Positions 46,426 to 55,774 of a stretch of 64,000 bases of DNA are shown here, piece by piece. A program made the translations under genes and the position numbers. Source of the stretch: Brevundimonas subvibrioides ATCC 15264 (GTDB taxonomy: Bacteria; Pseudomonadota; Alphaproteobacteria; Caulobacterales; Caulobacteraceae); assembly GCF_000144605.1 (NCBI RefSeq), contig NC_014375.1, positions 992,001 to 1,056,000 on the forward strand, read 5' to 3'. Each line of letters starts with the position of its first letter. The stretch's first letter is position 1. The notes under the pieces are model-generated. The model was not told where the DNA came from, did no database searches, and worked only from the letters and a program-made list of their open reading frames with translations.

Positions 46426-47024
46426 GCGGGCAGCTCGAGGAAGTTCTTCAGGATCCGCGCCCCTGCTTTGGCCGACCGCTCCGGGTGGAACTGGCAGCCC
46501 CAGCGGTTGCCGGTCCGGACCATGGCGGGGACCTCGGCACCATAGTCGGCGCAGGCGATGGTCGCGGGGGTATCGGGGCAGGCGTAGGAGTGGACGAAAT
46601 AGGCATAGTCGCCCTCGACCACGCCCTGCAGCAGGGGGTCGTCTTCCAGGTTATGCAGCTGCGACCAGCCCATGTGCGGCACCGGCAGGTCGTCGCGGAC
46701 GGGCATGCGGGTCACCCGGCCGGGGATGAAGCCCAGCATGGAGGCCCCGCCGTTCTCCTCGCTCTCGGCGAACAGAAGCTGCTGTCCCAGGCACAGGCCC
46801 AGCAGGGGGCGCTCGAAGCCCTTGATGATGTCGGTGAGGCCCAGCGCCGCCATCTGCTCCATGGCATAGCCGGCCGCGCCGACGCCGGGCAGGACCAGAC
46901 GTTCGGCCTCGGCGATCTCGACCGGATCGGCGGTGATGCGGGCGTCGGCTCCCAGCCGCTCGAGCGCGAACAGGACCGAGGCGGTGTTCCCGGCGCCCAG
47001 GTGGACGATGGCGGTATGGGTCAA
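46422..47024 (-). CDS. hisH: Imidazole glycerol phosphate synthase, glutamine amidotransferase subunit (TTG start)
   Basis: HisH supplies ammonia to HisF. The 200-residue protein has the class I amidotransferase triad: Cys78 in [20 protein letters not shown], and His180 and Glu182 in [35 protein letters not shown] gives the oxyanion region. The TTG at 47024 overlaps the stop of the hisC-like/hisB gene as TTGA, the same coupling seen elsewhere in this operon, and gives the normal family length. Confidence 0.95.
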
Positions 47025-48448
47025 AGCACGCCCTTCGTGCTGGGTACGGCGTCGCCCTCGACGCGGATGGCCTGACGGAGCGCGCGACCGAAGCCCTTGT
47101 AGACGGCCTCGGTCTTGTGGTGGTCGTCGTCGCCCTTGACCGAGATCTGGATCGCGGCCCCGAGGTGCTCGGCCAGCGAGCGGAAGACGTGGGCGGTCAG
47201 GTCGGTGCGGTACTCGCCGATGAAGGGGGTGGCGAAGCTGCCCTCGAACACCGGATAGGGACGCCCGGACAGGTCGATGGCGACATTGGCCTGGGCCTCG
47301 TCCATGGCCAGGACGAAGCCGTAGCGCTGGATGCCGCGCCGGTCGCCCAGCGCCTGTTTCAGGGCCTGGCCGAGCGCGATGGCGCTGTCCTCGATGGTGT
47401 GGTGCGGGTCGGTGTGCAGGTCGCCCTCGCACTGCAGCCGCAGGGAGAAGCCGCCGTGGGCCGCGACCTGTTCCAGCATGTGGTCGAAGAAGCCGACGCC
47501 GGTCTCGATCCGGATCGGGCCGGTCGCGTCCAGATCGACGGCGCAGACGATCCGGGTTTCTTTCGTGTCGCGCACGGCCTGTCCCACGCGGTGGGCGCGG
47601 GACTTGGCGGGCGTGAGGCCGAGCGCGGTCAGCAGCCGGTCGTTGACCTCGGCCTTGATGGAGACCGGCAGGCGGACGCGGTCGCCGGAGCGGTCAGCGG
47701 CGATGCCGTATTTCGACAGGTCGGCCAGGGTCGCCCCGATGTCCGACGGGCGCGCCATCAGGATGGGGCCGACGCCGGTCTCCACGACCATGACGCGGCC
47801 GATCTCGCGCACCAGCCGCTCGCGCTCGCGGCGGACGGCGGCGATGCGTTCGGCGGTCTCGATCATGCGCGATGGATCGAGGGCCTGCATGGCCAGCCGG
47901 ACCAGCGGTTCGGGCAGGGCGTAGGGTTCGACGACCTCGGTCAGTCGCGCCAAGGTCGCAGGCAGGGCCAGGGCCGCGCCGACGCGGGCTCCGGCCAGGC
48001 CATAGGCCAGCGACAGGCTGCGCAGGATGACCAGATTGGCGTGGTCCCCGATCAGGGTGGCGGCGGAAGGGGCGTCGGCGAACTCGACCAGGCCCTCGTC
48101 GACGACCAGCAGGGCGGGGGCGACGCGCTCGGCCATCTCGGCCACGGCCTCGGCCGAGCCGAGGGCGCGGATGACCACGGCAGCGCGCTCGCCGTCGCCG
48201 GCGCGGTAGATGCGGGCGAGGCCGGCGTAGGGCTCGGCATCGGGGGCCTCGATGGAACGGCCGTCCCGGGCGGCGAGACGGAACGCGAGTTCCAGCCCGT
48301 GGGTCAGGCCGCGGACGGGCAGGACCTGGTCGGGGGCGACGCCATAGACCTGGGCCATGCGGGCGGCGAGGGCGGAGGGATCGCCCGGATAGGCGTCGAG
48401 GCCTTCGCCACCGGCGACCAGCGGCGGATAGGGGGCGGGCAGGGTCAT
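47021..48448 (-). CDS. hisB: Fusion of a degenerate HisC-like domain with imidazoleglycerol-phosphate dehydratase (HisB)
   Basis: A 475-residue protein. Residues ~292-475 are a complete HisB (step 6): RDTKETRIVCAVDLDATGPI, GVGFFDHMLEQVAAHGGFSL, the metal histidines in DPHHTIEDSAIALG and DDDHHKTEAVYKGFGRALRQ, ending VPSTKGVL. Residues ~15-278 follow HisC (histidinol-phosphate aminotransferase): LDAYPGDPSALAARMAQVYG, LLVVDEGLVEF and ILRSLSLAYGLAGARVGAAL. The PLP lysine of SLSKA is Leu147 (codon CTG at 48008-48010), and the usual Tyr after VVDEA is also lost, so aminotransferase activity is not expected. The N-terminal arm of HisC is short. No internal start precedes the HisB part. A palindromic repeat lies between it and hisD. 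Confidence 0.92.
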   Translation of the reverse strand: MTLPAPYPPLVAGGEGLDAYPGDPSALAARMAQVYGVAPDQVLPVRGLTHGLELAFRLAARDGRSIEAPDAEPYAGLARIYRAGDGERAAVVIRALGSAEAVAEMAERVAPALLVVDEGLVEFADAPSAATLIGDHANLVILRSLSLAYGLAGARVGAALALPATLARLTEVVEPYALPEPLVRLAMQALDPSRMIETAERIAAVRRERERLVREIGRVMVVETGVGPILMARPSDIGATLADLSKYGIAADRSGDRVRLPVSIKAEVNDRLLTALGLTPAKSRAHRVGQAVRDTKETRIVCAVDLDATGPIRIETGVGFFDHMLEQVAAHGGFSLRLQCEGDLHTDPHHTIEDSAIALGQALKQALGDRRGIQRYGFVLAMDEAQANVAIDLSGRPYPVFEGSFATPFIGEYRTDLTAHVFRSLAEHLGAAIQISVKGDDDHHKTEAVYKGFGRALRQAIRVEGDAVPSTKGVL

Positions 48449-48452
48449 CGAG

Positions 48453-48601
48453 AATCCTCCCTCGAGAAGCGCAGCGGAACGGGGGAGGGGGACCGCGAAG
48501 CGGTGGAGGGGGCGGAAGCAAGCAGGGTGTCTGGGGTCGCCCCCTCCACCACGACGCAAGCGCGTCGCGGTCCCCCTCCCCCGCCGACGCGGGGGAGGAT
48601 T
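48453..48601. repeat. Palindromic repeat element inside the his operon
   Basis: About 149 bp between hisD and the hisC-like/hisB gene. The arms run AATCCTCCC ... GGGGGAGGGGGACCGCGA ... GGTGGAGGGGGC, against GCCCCCTCCACC ... TCGCGGTCCCCCTCCCCC ... GGGGGAGGATT. It can fold into a long stem in RNA. The AATCCTCCC end starts only 5 bp before the hisB-fusion ATG, so a folded transcript could affect ribosome access there. It is probably a REP/MITE-like insertion. Confidence 0.8.
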
Positions 48602-48614
48602 GAAGACAGCGAAC

Positions 48615-49937
48615 TCACGCGACACTCCTCAGGTCGGCCGCCCTGGCGTGGGCTTCCAGCCCTTCCAGCCGGGCCAGGCGTGCGGCGATGGGCCCGAGGC
48701 GTTCGGCTCCGGCCTCGGTCACGGTCTGGACCGACATGGAGGTCATGAAGCTGGCGGTGGTGATGCCGCCGAGCGTCCGCGCCCCGCCGTCGGTGGGCAG
48801 GACGTGGCTGGGGCCGGCGGCGTAGTCGCCGAGCGTCTCGGCGGCCCAGCGACCGACGAACACCGCTCCGGCGGCCCGGATGGAGGCGACCAGCGCCTCG
48901 GCGTCCTCGGCCTGGATCGCCAGGTGTTCGGGGCCATAGAGGTTGGACACCGCGCAGGCCTCGGCCATGTCGGACACGAGGATGGCGCGGGCTTCGGACA
49001 GGGAGGCGCGGGCGATGTCGGCGCGCGGCAGGGTGGTCAGCTGCTCTTCGACCTCGGCCAGGATGGCGTCGATCGTGGCGGCACGCTCGCAGACCAGGAT
49101 GACCTGGGCGTCGGCGTCGTGCTCGGCCTGGCTGAGCAGGTCGGCGGCAGCGATCTCGGGGTCGCAGAAGCGGTCGGCGATGACCAGCAGCTCCGACGGC
49201 CCGGCCGGCATGTCGACCGAGGGACCGTTCGGCAGGGCGGCGGCATAGCGTTTGGCCTCGGCGACATAGGCATTGCCCGGCCCGAACAGCTTGTCGCAGG
49301 CGGGGATCTCGCCGTCGTCCAGCACGGCGCCATAGGTCAGGGCCGCGATGGCCTGGGCTCCGCCGATCAGCCAGATCGCATCCAGGTTGGCTTCCGCCGC
49401 CGCCAGGATCATGGCGGGGTGGACGCTGCCGTCCTTCGCGGGCGGGGTGACCACGACCCGGGTCGTGACGCCCGCGACCTCGGCCGGGATGGCCTGCATG
49501 AGCAGCGACGAGAACAGGGGGGCCGTGCCGCCGGGGACGTAGATTCCCGCGGCACCGATGGGCCGCCAGACCAGTTTCGACTTCACGCCGGGCGTGGTCT
49601 CGACGAAGGCGGTGTCCTCGGGTTTGGTCGCCTGGTGGAAGACGCGGACGTTCTCGGCGGCCACTCTGAGCGCGCGGGTGTCGGCGGGGGGCAGGGCGTC
49701 ACGCGCGGCGGCGACGGCCTCTGGCGTGATGGCGATGCGGCGCGGCTTGAAGCCGTCGATCCGCTCGGCGAACTGGGTCACGGCCAGGCCGCCCGAGAGG
49801 GCGACCTGTTCGAAGATGCCGCTGACGACGTCCTGGACGTCGCGTTCGCTGCGGCGCGAGGGGCGGGCCAGGGCGTCGAACCGCCCCTGTCCGTCGAGGC
49901 TCGCCCAGTCGATGCGTTTGATGTCGAGCGTGGTCAT
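48615..49937 (-). CDS. hisD: Histidinol dehydrogenase
   Basis: HisD makes the last two oxidations to histidine with NAD+ and zinc. The 440-residue protein has GAAGIYVPGGTAPLFSSLLM, DKLFGPGNAYVAEAKRYAAA, VDMPAGPSELLVIADRFCDP, DLLSQAEHDADAQVILV, the catalytic Glu-His in NLYGPEHLAIQ and GPSHVLPTDGGARTLGGIT. The ATG at 49937 overlaps the hisG stop by one base. The gap to the next his gene (166 bp) is the only long one in the operon and contains the palindromic element. Confidence 0.97.
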   Translation of the reverse strand: MTTLDIKRIDWASLDGQGRFDALARPSRRSERDVQDVVSGIFEQVALSGGLAVTQFAERIDGFKPRRIAITPEAVAAARDALPPADTRALRVAAENVRVFHQATKPEDTAFVETTPGVKSKLVWRPIGAAGIYVPGGTAPLFSSLLMQAIPAEVAGVTTRVVVTPPAKDGSVHPAMILAAAEANLDAIWLIGGAQAIAALTYGAVLDDGEIPACDKLFGPGNAYVAEAKRYAAALPNGPSVDMPAGPSELLVIADRFCDPEIAAADLLSQAEHDADAQVILVCERAATIDAILAEVEEQLTTLPRADIARASLSEARAILVSDMAEACAVSNLYGPEHLAIQAEDAEALVASIRAAGAVFVGRWAAETLGDYAAGPSHVLPTDGGARTLGGITTASFMTSMSVQTVTEAGAERLGPIAARLARLEGLEAHARAADLRSVA

Positions 49938-51206: not shown

Positions 51207-53513
51207 TCAGGCCGCCTTCACCTCTTCGACGGCCGGCTGACCCAGGCGTTCGATCAGACCGGCCATCGGCAGGGCCCTGGCGATGAAATAGCCCTGGGCG
51301 GTGTCGCAGCCCATGCCGCGGAGGAGGGCCAGCGCCGTCGCGGTCTCGACCCCCTCAGCGGTGACCTTCAGGCCCAGGCTGTGGGCCAGGTCGATGGTCG
51401 ACTTGACCAGCAGGGCGTCGCGCGCGCTCTCGTCCAGGGTCAGGATGAAGGCCTTGTCGATCTTCAACTCGTCGGCGCGGATCTGTTTCAGATAGGACAG
51501 CGACGACAGGCCCGAGCCGTAGTCGTCGATCGAGACGCGGATCCCTGCGGCCGAGAACCGGTCGACGATGCCCAGCGCCATGGCGGGGTTGTCGATGACG
51601 GCCGTCTCCGTGATCTCGAAGATCATGTCGGCCCCCGCCCGCGCGACCTCCGCCAGGGCATGGTCGGCGAAGCTCTCGTCGGTCAGCAGCCGGCCGGAGA
51701 TGTTGACCGACATGGTCAGGGCGTGTCCGGCGGCCGCCAGGGTCTTCTGGTCGGCGATGGCGCGACGCAGGCCCCATTCGGTCAGTTCGCGGATCTGGCC
51801 CGTCTCTTCGGCCATGGTGATGAACAGGTCCGGGGAGACGAAGCCGCGACGCGGGTGGTTCCAGCGCATCAGGCCCTCGACGCCGGTGATGGCGTTGGCC
51901 CGCAGGTCGAACTTGGGCTGATAGGCCATCCAGACCTGGTCGCTCTCCAGCGCGCCCATCAGGTCGCTGATGAGGCTGAGGTTCCCGACCGGGTCGCCAT
52001 AGGCCGTCGCGTCGAAGCGGGCGGCCTTGCGGTGTCCGTCGCGGGCCTGGTCCAGGGCGATAGCGGCGCGGTCGATGAGGGAGTCCACGCCGCCCGTGAC
52101 GTCCACGGCGCTGGCGACCCCGGCGCGCAGGGTCGCGTCCACGGTCGCCCCGATGAGTTTGACCGGCCGGTCCGCGACGGCGCAGAGCCGCTCGGCCAGA
52201 GCCAGGGCCTCGGCGGCATCGGCGGCGGTCAGGACCATGCCGACGACCCCGGCGGAGACCCGCGCGACCTTCACGCCGCCGGCGGTCTCGGTGATGCGGG
52301 TCGCCAGCGCCGACAGCAGCTGGCCCATGGCGTCGTAGCCGATGGCGTTGCGGACGATGGGGAACCGGTCGATGCCGAGCACCACGACAAAGCCGTCCGT
52401 ATGGACGGCGACCTGCTGTTCCAGCCAGAGGCGGTTAGGCAGGCCCGTCTCCTGTTCGTGCAGGGCCATGTGGGTCAGGCGCGCTTCCCGGTCCCGGATG
52501 TCCCCGGCCATGGCGTTGAAGCTCTGTGCCAGCCGTCCGATCTCGTCGGGCGACGAGACGGTCACCTCGGCGTGCTCGCCGGCCTGCAGCCGGTGCACGG
52601 CCTGGTCCAGATCGGTGATGGGACGGGTCAGGCCGCGCGACAGGAACCAGGTGCCGCCCAGCAGCAGGCCGAACCCCGCCAGGGCGATGGCGCCGAGGGC
52701 CCAGAACATCGGCGCATAGGGGCGGAGCGCGCGCGCCATCGGATAGCTGAGGGTGAGGACGGCGGGGGCGTCGGCATCGAAGCTGGGCAGGGGCTTGGCC
52801 AGGACCATGGCTTCGCCCTCGTCCAGCCGGGCCTCGATCGGGCGGCCGCGGGGGGTGGTCAGGGCCTGGTCGATCGCGCCGTCTAGGGCGCTGGTCGGCC
52901 CGGCCATGTCGCGCCAGCCGGCGTTTGAGGAGGTGAGCACCGAAGCCGTCAGGGGAATGGCGGACAGGGTCTCCAGCTTGCGCATCTGGGCCTGGTCCAG
53001 GCGCTCGACGAAGACGACCCAGCCGATCAGGACCGGGGCCATGATCGGCGCGGCCACGGCCTGGTAGGGCTGGCCGTCGACGGTCAGCACCCCGGCCTCG
53101 ATGCCGCCGGCGTTGAGGCCTTGCCACAGGGTGTCGGTGGCCGCCTCATCGAGCGTCAGGCCCGCGCCGGTGGCATAGCCGTCGACGCCCAGGATCAGGG
53201 CTCCATCCACCTGCTGGCGGGCGCGGAGATTGTCGAGGGCGGACCGGACCGTCGGCTCGTCCTCGGTGGCCACGGCTTCGCGGAATCCGAAATCCTGGGC
53301 CAGGACCGAGGCCCCCTGGTGCAGCTGGGCCGAGCGCGATTCCCACAGCTGGCCGTAGACGGCGCCCGATGCGGTGAGCTCGTCGCGGACCAGGCCGCGC
53401 GCGCTGCCCGTGATCGCCGTGAACACCGCGGTCGCCACCAGGATCAGGGCGATGCCGAACAGACCGGCATACAGCACCGTCATGCGGGTGCGCAGGGTGC
53501 GGAACCTCAGCAC
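51207..53513 (-). CDS. Membrane sensor with HAMP, degenerate GGDEF and EAL domains (c-di-GMP phosphodiesterase)
   Basis: A 768-residue protein starting with GTG. Helix 1 (TVLYAGLFGIALILVATAVF) and helix 2 near residue 275 bracket a ~230-residue periplasmic sensor region. HAMP follows (RPITDLDQAVHRLQAGEHAE). The GGDEF domain is degenerate: the signature site reads VARVSAGVVGMVL. The EAL domain looks active: VEGLMRWNHPRRGF (EGL for EAL), MSVNISGRLL, IFEITETAVI, SIDDYGSGLSSLSYLKQI, ELKIDKAFI, TAEGVE and AQGYF are all kept. It should degrade c-di-GMP in response to an envelope signal. The cupredoxin gene ends 1 bp upstream, so the two are cotranscribed. Confidence 0.92.
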   Translation of the reverse strand: MLRFRTLRTRMTVLYAGLFGIALILVATAVFTAITGSARGLVRDELTASGAVYGQLWESRSAQLHQGASVLAQDFGFREAVATEDEPTVRSALDNLRARQQVDGALILGVDGYATGAGLTLDEAATDTLWQGLNAGGIEAGVLTVDGQPYQAVAAPIMAPVLIGWVVFVERLDQAQMRKLETLSAIPLTASVLTSSNAGWRDMAGPTSALDGAIDQALTTPRGRPIEARLDEGEAMVLAKPLPSFDADAPAVLTLSYPMARALRPYAPMFWALGAIALAGFGLLLGGTWFLSRGLTRPITDLDQAVHRLQAGEHAEVTVSSPDEIGRLAQSFNAMAGDIRDREARLTHMALHEQETGLPNRLWLEQQVAVHTDGFVVVLGIDRFPIVRNAIGYDAMGQLLSALATRITETAGGVKVARVSAGVVGMVLTAADAAEALALAERLCAVADRPVKLIGATVDATLRAGVASAVDVTGGVDSLIDRAAIALDQARDGHRKAARFDATAYGDPVGNLSLISDLMGALESDQVWMAYQPKFDLRANAITGVEGLMRWNHPRRGFVSPDLFITMAEETGQIRELTEWGLRRAIADQKTLAAAGHALTMSVNISGRLLTDESFADHALAEVARAGADMIFEITETAVIDNPAMALGIVDRFSAAGIRVSIDDYGSGLSSLSYLKQIRADELKIDKAFILTLDESARDALLVKSTIDLAHSLGLKVTAEGVETATALALLRGMGCDTAQGYFIARALPMAGLIERLGQPAVEEVKAA

Positions 53514-53514
53514 G

Positions 53515-54135
53515 TCAGCGCACCGCCGCCCGGCCGGAGAAGTCGCCGGCGATGGTGTGACGTCCCGCGCCGGCGCCGATGGTCACCGGATAGGCCGTCT
53601 CGTTGCCGCGCACGTTGAGCTGGGGGTGCCAGACCCGCAGCGAGGCGGCCCCCGCCGGGATGGCCGGGATGGTGACATTGCCGCTGGCGTCGGTCTTGCC
53701 GGCCCAGGGCGTGTCGACGACGCGGACGAAGGCCAGCATCTGGTCGTGGATGTTGCAGCCGAGGGCCGCGACGCCGGCGGTGGTGAAGGTGTGGCTGCGT
53801 GTCTGGTCCTGGCCGAAAAGCTCGATCTCGAACCGGTTGCCGCGCGAGAAGGAGTAGACGTGGTGGCGGACCCGATCGAGGTTGGGGAAAGAGACCGTTG
53901 CGCCCACCGGTGCGATCAGGACGTAGGGCTGGAACTGGACGTTCTGCTGGACGACGCGGAGCGGCCAGGAGAAGCGGATCGGTCCGGACGGGACGCCGGC
54001 GTTGGGTCGGACGGTCACGACCGCATCACGCACCGGCTGACCGGCGGCATTTCGGACGCTGATGGTCAGATCTCCTGCGAACGCTGTTCCATGAACGGAA
54101 ATAACGAATAGCAGGGCAAAAAGTATAGAGCGCAT
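53515..54135 (-). CDS. Secreted cupredoxin-like (methylamine-utilisation type) protein
   Basis: A 206-residue periplasmic protein. The signal peptide is MRSILFALLFVISVHGTAFA. The mature part has a beta-sandwich with NLDRVRHHVYSFSRGNRFEI and GVAALGCNIHDQMLAFVRVV. His in HHVY plus the Cys, His and Met in CNIHDQM form the usual ligand set of a type 1 copper site. After the cupredoxin core, AGKTDASGNVTIPAIPAGAA resembles a carboxypeptidase-regulatory-like fold. It lies 1 bp upstream of the EAL gene and is divergent from the DUF3034/haemoglobin pair, which suggests an electron-transfer or sensor-partner role. Confidence 0.85.
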   Translation of the reverse strand: MRSILFALLFVISVHGTAFAGDLTISVRNAAGQPVRDAVVTVRPNAGVPSGPIRFSWPLRVVQQNVQFQPYVLIAPVGATVSFPNLDRVRHHVYSFSRGNRFEIELFGQDQTRSHTFTTAGVAALGCNIHDQMLAFVRVVDTPWAGKTDASGNVTIPAIPAGAASLRVWHPQLNVRGNETAYPVTIGAGAGRHTIAGDFSGRAAVR

Positions 54136-54331
54136 CAATGCTCTCTAAGCAGCGGTCCGTGAAATCGAAGTAAACGGTCACGCAACCAGAGATGGTAGGC
54201 GGTTTTCAAGTAGCGTTGATGTCCTGTAACCGCCAACGCATGCGCTTAACTCGAAATCCAATCATTTTTATTCGCGGTTAACCCTGTCCGCCCTAGCAGC
54301 GCCCGGCAGTATGCACTGCCGGAGGTTCGTC
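54136..54331. promoter_or_regulatory. Divergent promoter region of the cupredoxin-EAL and DUF3034-haemoglobin units
   Basis: 196 bp with higher AT content than its surroundings. It contains the inverted pair GGCGGTT (54198-54204) and AACCGCC (54228-54234), and the palindrome GGTTAACC (54276-54283). Either could be a regulator site. No definite promoter hexamers were chosen. Confidence 0.4.
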
Positions 54332-55237
54332 GTGTCTCGATCGTGGGTTTGGCTGGCCGGTGCCGCGGTCGGGAGCGCGCTTTGGTGCGTGTCTTGCCCG
54401 GCGTCTGCCCAGGCGTTCGACTGGGTCCCCGAGAGCCGGACCGGCGGGAAGCTGCTGCTGACCGGCGGCGTCTCCACCCTCGAGGGCTCGGGCGGCGGGG
54501 GCATGGCGACCTGGGCGACCACGACCGGATACGGGGCCGAGGACGGCATCGGCGGCAATGTGCACGCCACCTGGGTCAACCTGCCGGACTATGAACTGCG
54601 ATCCTGGGGCGCGGCCGTGGGGCTGTGGGACCGGGTCGAGCTGTCCGTCGCCCGGCAGGAGTTCGACACCGGCGACACGGGCGCGGCGCTCGGTCTGGGG
54701 CAGGGATTCACCTTCACCCAGGACATCGTAGGTGTGAAGGTCCGGCTGCTGGGCGACGCCGTCTATGACCAGGCCGGCTGGATGCCCCAGGTCGCGGTGG
54801 GGCTGCAGCACAAGACCAACGACCAGGGCGCGATCATCACGGCCGTCGGCGGCAAGGACGACGAGGGCACCGAAGCCTATGTCGCCGCCACAAAGCTGTT
54901 TCTGGCGCAGTCGCTGCTGGTGTCCGGCACCGTGCGCTGGACCGATGCCAACCAGACCGGCCTGCTGGGCTTCGGCGGCGACCGCAACGACGACCTGGAG
55001 CCGCAGTTCGAGGGTTCGGTCGGCTATCTGCTGAGCCGCAACCTCGTGGTCGGGGCCGAAGTCCGCACCAAGCCGGACAACCTGGGTTTCGCCGGCGAGG
55101 ACGACTGGCTGGACGTCTATGCGGCCTGGGCCATCAACAAGCATCTGTCGGTCACGGCCGCCTGGGTCGACCTGGGTTCCATCGCCACCTTCGAGAACCA
55201 GCGTGGCCTCTATCTGTCGCTCCAAGCGGGGTTCTGA
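54332..55237 (+). CDS. DUF3034 family outer-membrane protein
   Basis: A 301-residue exported protein. GTG 54332 is chosen because GGAGG lies 6 bp upstream; the ATG at 54311 has no SD. The signal peptide runs MSRSWVWLAGAAVGSALWCV to SAQA. The mature sequence has alternating amphipathic strands such as YELRSWGAAVGLWDRVELSV and GVKVRLLGDAVYDQAGWMPQ. It ends in YLSLQAGF, with the C-terminal phenylalanine typical of outer-membrane barrels. DUF3034 has no known function. The truncated haemoglobin gene follows after 3 bp. Confidence 0.82.
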   Translation: MSRSWVWLAGAAVGSALWCVSCPASAQAFDWVPESRTGGKLLLTGGVSTLEGSGGGGMATWATTTGYGAEDGIGGNVHATWVNLPDYELRSWGAAVGLWDRVELSVARQEFDTGDTGAALGLGQGFTFTQDIVGVKVRLLGDAVYDQAGWMPQVAVGLQHKTNDQGAIITAVGGKDDEGTEAYVAATKLFLAQSLLVSGTVRWTDANQTGLLGFGGDRNDDLEPQFEGSVGYLLSRNLVVGAEVRTKPDNLGFAGEDDWLDVYAAWAINKHLSVTAAWVDLGSIATFENQRGLYLSLQAGF

Positions 55238-55240
55238 ATC

Positions 55241-55774
55241 ATGCGCCTGTTCCTGATCGCCGCTGCGCTCGCCACACTAAACACGCCCGCCTTCGCCCAG
55301 GACGCCGACGCGCCGCTGGAGCTGCCCCCGGTCGTCATGTCGACGGAGCACCCGGGCGAGATCGCGGTCGACGCCTATGAGCGCTCCGATGCCAACGCCG
55401 GGGCGACCCCGTTTCAGGGCACGGCCATGTGGGAGGCGTTCCACGGCGAGGCGGGCGTGTCGCGGATCGTCGACGCCTTCGTGGCCCGCAACGTGGCGGA
55501 CCCCCGCATCGCGGGCACGTTCGTCAGCCACGATCTGATCCGCCTGCGCCGGACCCTGAAGGAACAGTTCGGCTACATCCTCGGCGGTCCGGTCACCTAT
55601 TCCGGCCGCGACATGGAAAGCAGCCACCGCGATCTGGGACTGCAGGCCGCCGACATGGGCGCGCTGGTCGAGAACCTGCAGGCGGCCATGCAGGCCGAGG
55701 GCATCAGCTTCCCGGCCCAGAACCGGTTCCTCGCCAAACTGGCCCCGATGAAGCCGGACGTCGTCACGAGGTAA
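55241..55774 (+). CDS. Secreted group 1 truncated haemoglobin
   Basis: A 177-residue protein with a signal peptide (MRLFLIAAALATLNTPAFAQ). After a linker, the globin domain spans about residues 60-175: WEAFHGEAGVSRIVDAFVAR, RIAGTFVSHDLIRLRRTLKE, QFGYILGGPVTYSGRDMESS and HRDLGLQAADMGALVENLQA, in which the His of SSHRDLGL is the proximal haem ligand. Truncated haemoglobins bind O2 or NO. Export is unusual and points to periplasmic sensing or detoxification. It lies 3 bp after the DUF3034 gene and opposite a cupredoxin-EAL unit. Confidence 0.87.
   Translation: MRLFLIAAALATLNTPAFAQDADAPLELPPVVMSTEHPGEIAVDAYERSDANAGATPFQGTAMWEAFHGEAGVSRIVDAFVARNVADPRIAGTFVSHDLIRLRRTLKEQFGYILGGPVTYSGRDMESSHRDLGLQAADMGALVENLQAAMQAEGISFPAQNRFLAKLAPMKPDVVTR

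Follow-up and report, generated by a model that had tools for sequence, protein, structure and literature searches.

A conserved gene set for a DUF3034 protein, a truncated haemoglobin, a cupredoxin and an EAL protein in Brevundimonas subvibrioides as a probable envelope signalling system

The window analysed here is a 64,000-nucleotide stretch of the genome of Brevundimonas subvibrioides ATCC 15264 (NC_014375.1, positions 992,001 to 1,056,000 of the forward strand), in which four adjacent genes encode a DUF3034 protein, a truncated haemoglobin, a cupredoxin and an EAL-domain protein that very probably form one signalling system. The best explanation of the whole, which is favoured by a modest degree, is an envelope-spanning system with the DUF3034 protein and the globin as input, a copper protein as messenger and a dCache_3-HAMP-EAL protein as output. 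A signalling system is favoured because missing members of the set are replaced by other sensors with outputs or by other carriers, which is the strongest argument. The analysis establishes which genes are present and that they are co-conserved, and it documents export signatures, invariance of the ligand and catalytic residues, a predicted barrel fold and the exchangeability of parts. The features of the cluster are as follows.

51207-53513, minus strand: inner-membrane transducer of 768 amino acids with a GTG start, dCache_3-HAMP-degenerate GGDEF-EAL (Pfam)
51276-51965, minus strand: EAL domain, residues 517-746 of the transducer (PF00563, 215 bits)
52812-53354, minus strand: dCache_3 periplasmic sensor domain, residues 54-234 of the transducer (PF14827, 39.9 bits, cut-off 25.7)
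53515-54135, minus strand: predicted exported cupredoxin of 206 amino acids (family profile against the Protein Data Bank, PDB)
53737-53865, minus strand: type 1 copper ligands H91, C127, H130 and M133 (C-x2-H-x2-M) of the cupredoxin
54136-54331, no strand: divergent promoter region of 196 bp, common to both gene pairs (alignment of 17 loci)
54332-55237, plus strand: predicted DUF3034 outer-membrane channel with a GTG start (PF11231 and AlphaFold2 model)
55241-55774, plus strand: predicted exported group 1 truncated haemoglobin of 177 amino acids (PF01152, PDB matches, signal peptide)
55625-55627, plus strand: codon of the proximal haem ligand His129 of the globin, invariant in 102 of 102 relatives

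All four open reading frames lie where the first-pass annotation had placed them, in two tight divergent pairs: on the minus strand the cupredoxin stop codon ends at 53515, 1 nt ahead of the start of the EAL protein, and on the plus strand the globin begins 3 nt past the DUF3034 stop. The best start for DUF3034 is the GTG at 54332, which has GGAGG upstream and is in register with the ATG of relatives; the gap between the pairs is therefore 196 bp, as had been stated, and would be 175 bp with the alternative ATG at 54311. Two motifs in this region are conserved within the genus in the 17-locus alignment, GTGAA-N7-8-GTAAA close to the cupredoxin start and a GCCATTAACCCTGTTGC-like motif close to DUF3034.

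Co-conservation was assessed in an even sample of 397 Proteobacteria genomes, 46 of which have DUF3034, and in 105 dereplicated loci comprising the sampled ones and named additions from Brevundimonas, Caulobacter, Phenylobacterium, Sphingomonas, Lysobacter, Rhodanobacter, Caballeronia and others; relatives from the contig search lean to near relatives, and the 397-genome sample is free of that lean. Flanking DNA of the DUF3034 loci, up to 9 kb in either direction, was scored with profiles built from the four-gene set, genes in relatives that lack an annotated record were called by codon scoring, and export signatures were scored by a home-made signal-peptide rule. The set survives the survey that the first-pass annotation had proposed: among the 46 DUF3034 loci of the phylum sample, 45 have the globin, 40 the cupredoxin, 37 the cognate EAL protein and 36 all four linked, on a single strand in 28 cases and divergent in eight. 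When the cupredoxin was searched for genome-wide, it was present in 45/46 genomes with DUF3034 versus 17/351 without (Fisher p = 6e-44, shared ancestry ignored), and in three genomes (G386, G246, G270) the DUF3034-globin pair stands alone at its locus with an orphan cupredoxin-EAL pair elsewhere. DUF3034 is next to the globin in 102 of the 105 loci, the cupredoxin and transducer adjoin in most, sometimes without the globin, and the same gene content occurs in several gene orders. No other recognisable family was found in more than about eight of the 105 loci, larger clusters in the neighbour tally being shadow frames of the four set genes, and no natural fusions among the four proteins were found, the long open reading frames being only stop-to-stop frames that overlap a neighbour. 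The distance matrices of the four proteins correlate at 0.75-0.84. Within the genus DUF3034 is sparse (5 of 37 genomes, counting that of the window); 20 same-genus sites, taken from upstream of the his flank, divide into five with the complete set, three with a lone EAL gene and a remainder with none of the four, in which some contigs end early. Relatives of DUF3034 were confirmed in at least 586 matches and occur in hundreds of proteobacterial genomes, the majority of those inspected having the four-gene set; on a Caballeronia megaplasmid, consecutive genes are annotated as DUF3034, 'group 1 truncated hemoglobin', 'methylamine utilization protein' and EAL protein.

Replacement of parts is seen at both ends of the set. 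At the output end, the cupredoxin of one locus (L058) is followed by a dCache_3-HAMP-Ser/Thr kinase instead of the EAL protein; in five loci (L107, L122, L125, L152, L159) a small secreted cupredoxin comes next after the DUF3034-globin pair, ahead of a membrane protein that is a HAMP-PAS histidine kinase in all three loci scanned (L107, L125, L152); and the place of the transducer is taken by a HAMP chemoreceptor in L144 and by a divergent HAMP-PAS-GGDEF-EAL protein in L139. These swaps of kinases, chemoreceptor and GGDEF-EAL protein keep a periplasmic sensor with HAMP and are counted in favour of a signalling system. The small cupredoxin is found in 8 of 31 loci without the large one versus 2 of 74 with it, both distant and weak (p = 8e-4). 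The cupredoxin of Lysobacter- and Rhodanobacter-type loci precedes a protein of about 360 amino acids, which lacks an output domain and matches Cache/CHASE4 or HAMP only weakly. HiPIP-like proteins, slightly below cut-off, adjoin the globin in L091 and L093, and a cytochrome c and a ferritin-like protein lie beside it in L138. In Xanthomonadales-type loci (L105, L132, L142, L128, L134, L151, L155), an extracytoplasmic function (ECF) sigma factor and a putative anti-sigma gene stand beside the DUF3034-globin pair and are perhaps a transcriptional output of the system as a whole; a Lipoprotein_15 protein is near DUF3034 in several ECF-bearing loci of Lysobacter or Rhodanobacter type.

At the input end, 12 of 20 cupredoxin loci unlinked to DUF3034 encode another outer-membrane protein of about 410 amino acids, which has no Pfam or NCBIfam family and no CxxCH haem motifs and is predicted to be an OprP/OprO-like porin (Z 26). 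This porin-type set, consisting of the cupredoxin, usually the EAL protein and the porin, was located at 4673-5905 of L232 and in L235, L236, L237, L238, L239, L241-L244, L227 and L229, and also in L100 and L102. The DUF3034-globin pair is thus one of two alternative input units, and the general pattern shared by the two forms is an outer-membrane barrel, a periplasmic one-electron carrier and a periplasmic sensor with a changeable output. The claim that the four genes are a unit holds as to their conservation but has to be narrowed, the globin being confined to the DUF3034 form whereas the second cupredoxin-transducer form has a different porin and no globin; control of c-di-GMP (cyclic di-GMP), also claimed, is the predicted output in the window but only one of several in the wider system. 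On a Comamonas aquatica plasmid (L266, NZ_CP104280.1), the cupredoxin-EAL pair adjoins a DUF4394 gene, and its vicinity has no DUF3034 and no annotated porin.

The transducer has HAMP (residues 290-340) and GGDEF (residues 352-495) domains above the Pfam cut-offs between its dCache_3 and EAL domains. The catalytic positions of the EAL domain (Glu, Asn, Glu, Asp-Asp, Lys, Glu, Gln) are unchanged in 62 of 62 cognate relatives, and it is predicted to be an intact c-di-GMP phosphodiesterase domain. As had been noted, the window protein has a degenerate GGDEF motif (R-V-S-A-G-V-V), but this is not general, the canonical motif being kept in about half of the cognate relatives. The dCache_3 domain recurs with other outputs, in the kinase variants of L058 and L244 (below cut-off in L244); a sequence search returned no solved structure related to it.

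The cupredoxin matches no Pfam cupredoxin model up to E 0.1, but a profile of its family, run against the PDB, hits copper nitrite reductase and amicyanin (best E 5e-8), with which the protein shares the H, C, H and M ligands and the C-x2-H-x2-M spacing. The full type 1 ligand set claimed for it is present in the window protein and invariant in 74 of 74 relatives. Unlike known type 1 cupredoxins, it has an additional C-terminal carboxypeptidase-regulatory-like region, and its partner is a signal transducer rather than a respiratory or methylamine utilization (mau) enzyme. Public records of relatives call it 'methylamine utilization protein'; membership of a mau cluster was considered and rejected, there being no recurrent fifth family in the 105 loci and no other mau genes annotated around the Caballeronia copy.

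The DUF3034 protein matches PF11231 over model positions 1-255 of 255 (357.7 bits), and its AlphaFold2 model is a 12-strand barrel that ends in Phe. Export-type N-termini are present in 101 of 105 DUF3034 proteins. The closest fold match is FapF (Z 20.0 over 222 residues, 13% identity), followed in this comparison by the COG4313 channel (Z 18.7) and, weakly, the copper transporter PcoB (Z 13.0). By its likeness in predicted fold to the FapF and COG4313 outer-membrane channels, with which it has only 8-13% identity, DUF3034 is predicted to be an outer-membrane channel. The window globin scores 39.6 bits against PF01152 (cut-off 21), and its best PDB matches are group 1 truncated haemoglobins of HbN type; G122, M125 and H129 are unchanged in 102 of 102 relatives. 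The family, proximal His and PDB matches are in common with HbN and cyanoglobin, but members of that type are cytosolic, as are all known group 1 truncated haemoglobins to our knowledge, whereas the cluster globins are predicted to be exported or lipoproteins, usually with a Cys pair. The proposed export of the globin and the cupredoxin is borne out as a prediction by signal-type N-termini in 101 of 102 and 69 of 74 proteins. A lipobox is present in 24 globins, and none has Asp at +2; under the lipoprotein sorting rule, absence of Asp at +2 directs a protein to the outer membrane, and these globins are therefore predicted to reside there. Cysteines at globin positions 111 and 118 are both present in 94 of 102 relatives, both absent in seven, including the window globin (window positions 55571-55594), and single in one with a broken frame; such joint gain or loss is as expected of a periplasmic disulphide.

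A mechanism can be proposed in which the input unit would consist of the DUF3034 outer-membrane channel and a group 1 truncated haemoglobin that is periplasmic or tethered to the outer membrane, and a redox or gas state (oxygen, nitric oxide or an oxidant) would be read at the haem of the globin. The messenger would be the periplasmic blue-copper protein, conveying this state as Cu(I)/Cu(II) or by binding and acting on the periplasmic dCache_3 domain of the inner-membrane protein, and the HAMP linker would then make the EAL phosphodiesterase in the cytoplasm more or less active and thus alter c-di-GMP, both the contact and the direction of change being conjectural. The signal may well be a redox or gas state that passes via the copper protein, for which we infer the ligand and the electron transfer; a haem protein and one-electron carriers keep recurring as partners, which speaks for such a signal. 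More tentatively, the cluster could be an electron-relay pathway across the Gram-negative envelope, in which the channel and tethered haemoglobin pass electrons to a blue-copper protein, small cupredoxin, HiPIP or cytochrome c whose redox state is read by a sensor with interchangeable outputs.

The closest working analogues are YfiBNR of Pseudomonas aeruginosa and HmsCDE of Yersinia pestis, whose HAMP-containing inner-membrane c-di-GMP enzyme is governed by a soluble messenger in the periplasm together with an outer-membrane protein, and which both respond to a reducing periplasm (PMC3375315, PMC5550408). The layout predicted for the cluster from sequence and models would run from outer membrane through periplasm to a HAMP transducer, but its messenger is a blue-copper protein rather than a Cys-rich repressor, its outer-membrane part is a barrel with a globin rather than a lipoprotein, and its enzyme carries an EAL phosphodiesterase domain rather than making c-di-GMP. 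Pfam assigns neither a YfiR nor an OmpA-type domain to any of the four proteins, nor does one recur as a fifth gene, and the cluster is therefore not a YfiBNR member. The combination had been called undescribed, and a literature search, which most subscription papers lay outside, likewise returned no account of the gene set and only incidental mentions of DUF3034.

Several observations weigh against the proposed system. Ten of the 46 loci do not have all four genes together, and an EAL gene stands alone at the site in three same-genus genomes; the Fisher test leaves common descent out of account; the HiPIP neighbours come from two loci and the cytochrome c from one; and the globin profile used here detects no globin at the porin-type loci, so that a relay from globin to copper is not universal. 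That the four are unrelated neighbours, brought together by chance or operon convenience, would fit the occasional separation of the two pairs and the survival of a lone EAL gene, but is highly improbable and was set aside in view of the genome-wide co-occurrence of the cupredoxin even when unlinked, the same content in several gene orders and joint presence or absence at most of the same-genus sites examined.

A copper-sensing system, in which the cupredoxin would serve as the periplasmic receptor for copper and, once loaded, dock on dCache_3, with copper or one of its complexes entering through the barrel and the globin guarding against copper- or nitric oxide-driven damage, could account for the adjacency of cupredoxin and transducer in most loci, some of them without the globin, and for the faint likeness to PcoB; it is nevertheless unlikely, since no copper export or chaperone family recurs near the 105 loci, the partner swaps include copper-free HiPIP and cytochrome c, and a full four-ligand site with Met is a typical feature of electron carriers rather than of regulators that respond to copper. 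Group 1 HbN-type globins are a class with nitric oxide dioxygenase activity, and together with the single-electron carriers that adjoin the globin this is what a detoxification operon would predict, in which the cupredoxin would re-reduce the globin, acting as a periplasmic nitric oxide dioxygenase or peroxidase, and the EAL protein would answer separately to its own ligand; such an operon has a low probability, however, because the cupredoxin is tied most tightly to the sensor and keeps this partner where there is no globin at all. Secretion through DUF3034 as a FapF-like pore that delivers the globin, or some other product, to the cell surface, the EAL protein merely coupling this to biofilm state, would agree with FapF as the best fold match and with the nearly constant neighbourhood of DUF3034 and globin, but likeness among 12-strand barrels is general, as the COG4313 channel illustrates, no amyloid, chaperone or protease genes recur nearby, and the Lol route could take the lipobox globins to the outer membrane; as the main function it was set aside as a quite improbable one.

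Elsewhere in the window, the open reading frame at 47021-48625 (minus strand) resembles, by eye from its translation, a HisC-HisB-like fusion of histidinol-phosphate aminotransferase and imidazoleglycerol-phosphate dehydratase.

Current annotations of the four genes read only 'DUF3034', 'group 1 truncated hemoglobin', 'methylamine utilization protein' and 'EAL domain protein'. If the envelope-spanning system is real, a function would be given to a domain of unknown function, a role to exported haemoglobins, and to a copper protein the part of signal carrier rather than respiratory component; sensing by one class of periplasmic Cache-domain c-di-GMP enzymes would become directly testable, with loci that differ in output but keep the periplasmic part constant as a natural comparison set. 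If the electron relay is also true, redox-to-signal systems of this kind would form a general class, in which either of two outer-membrane proteins serves as input.

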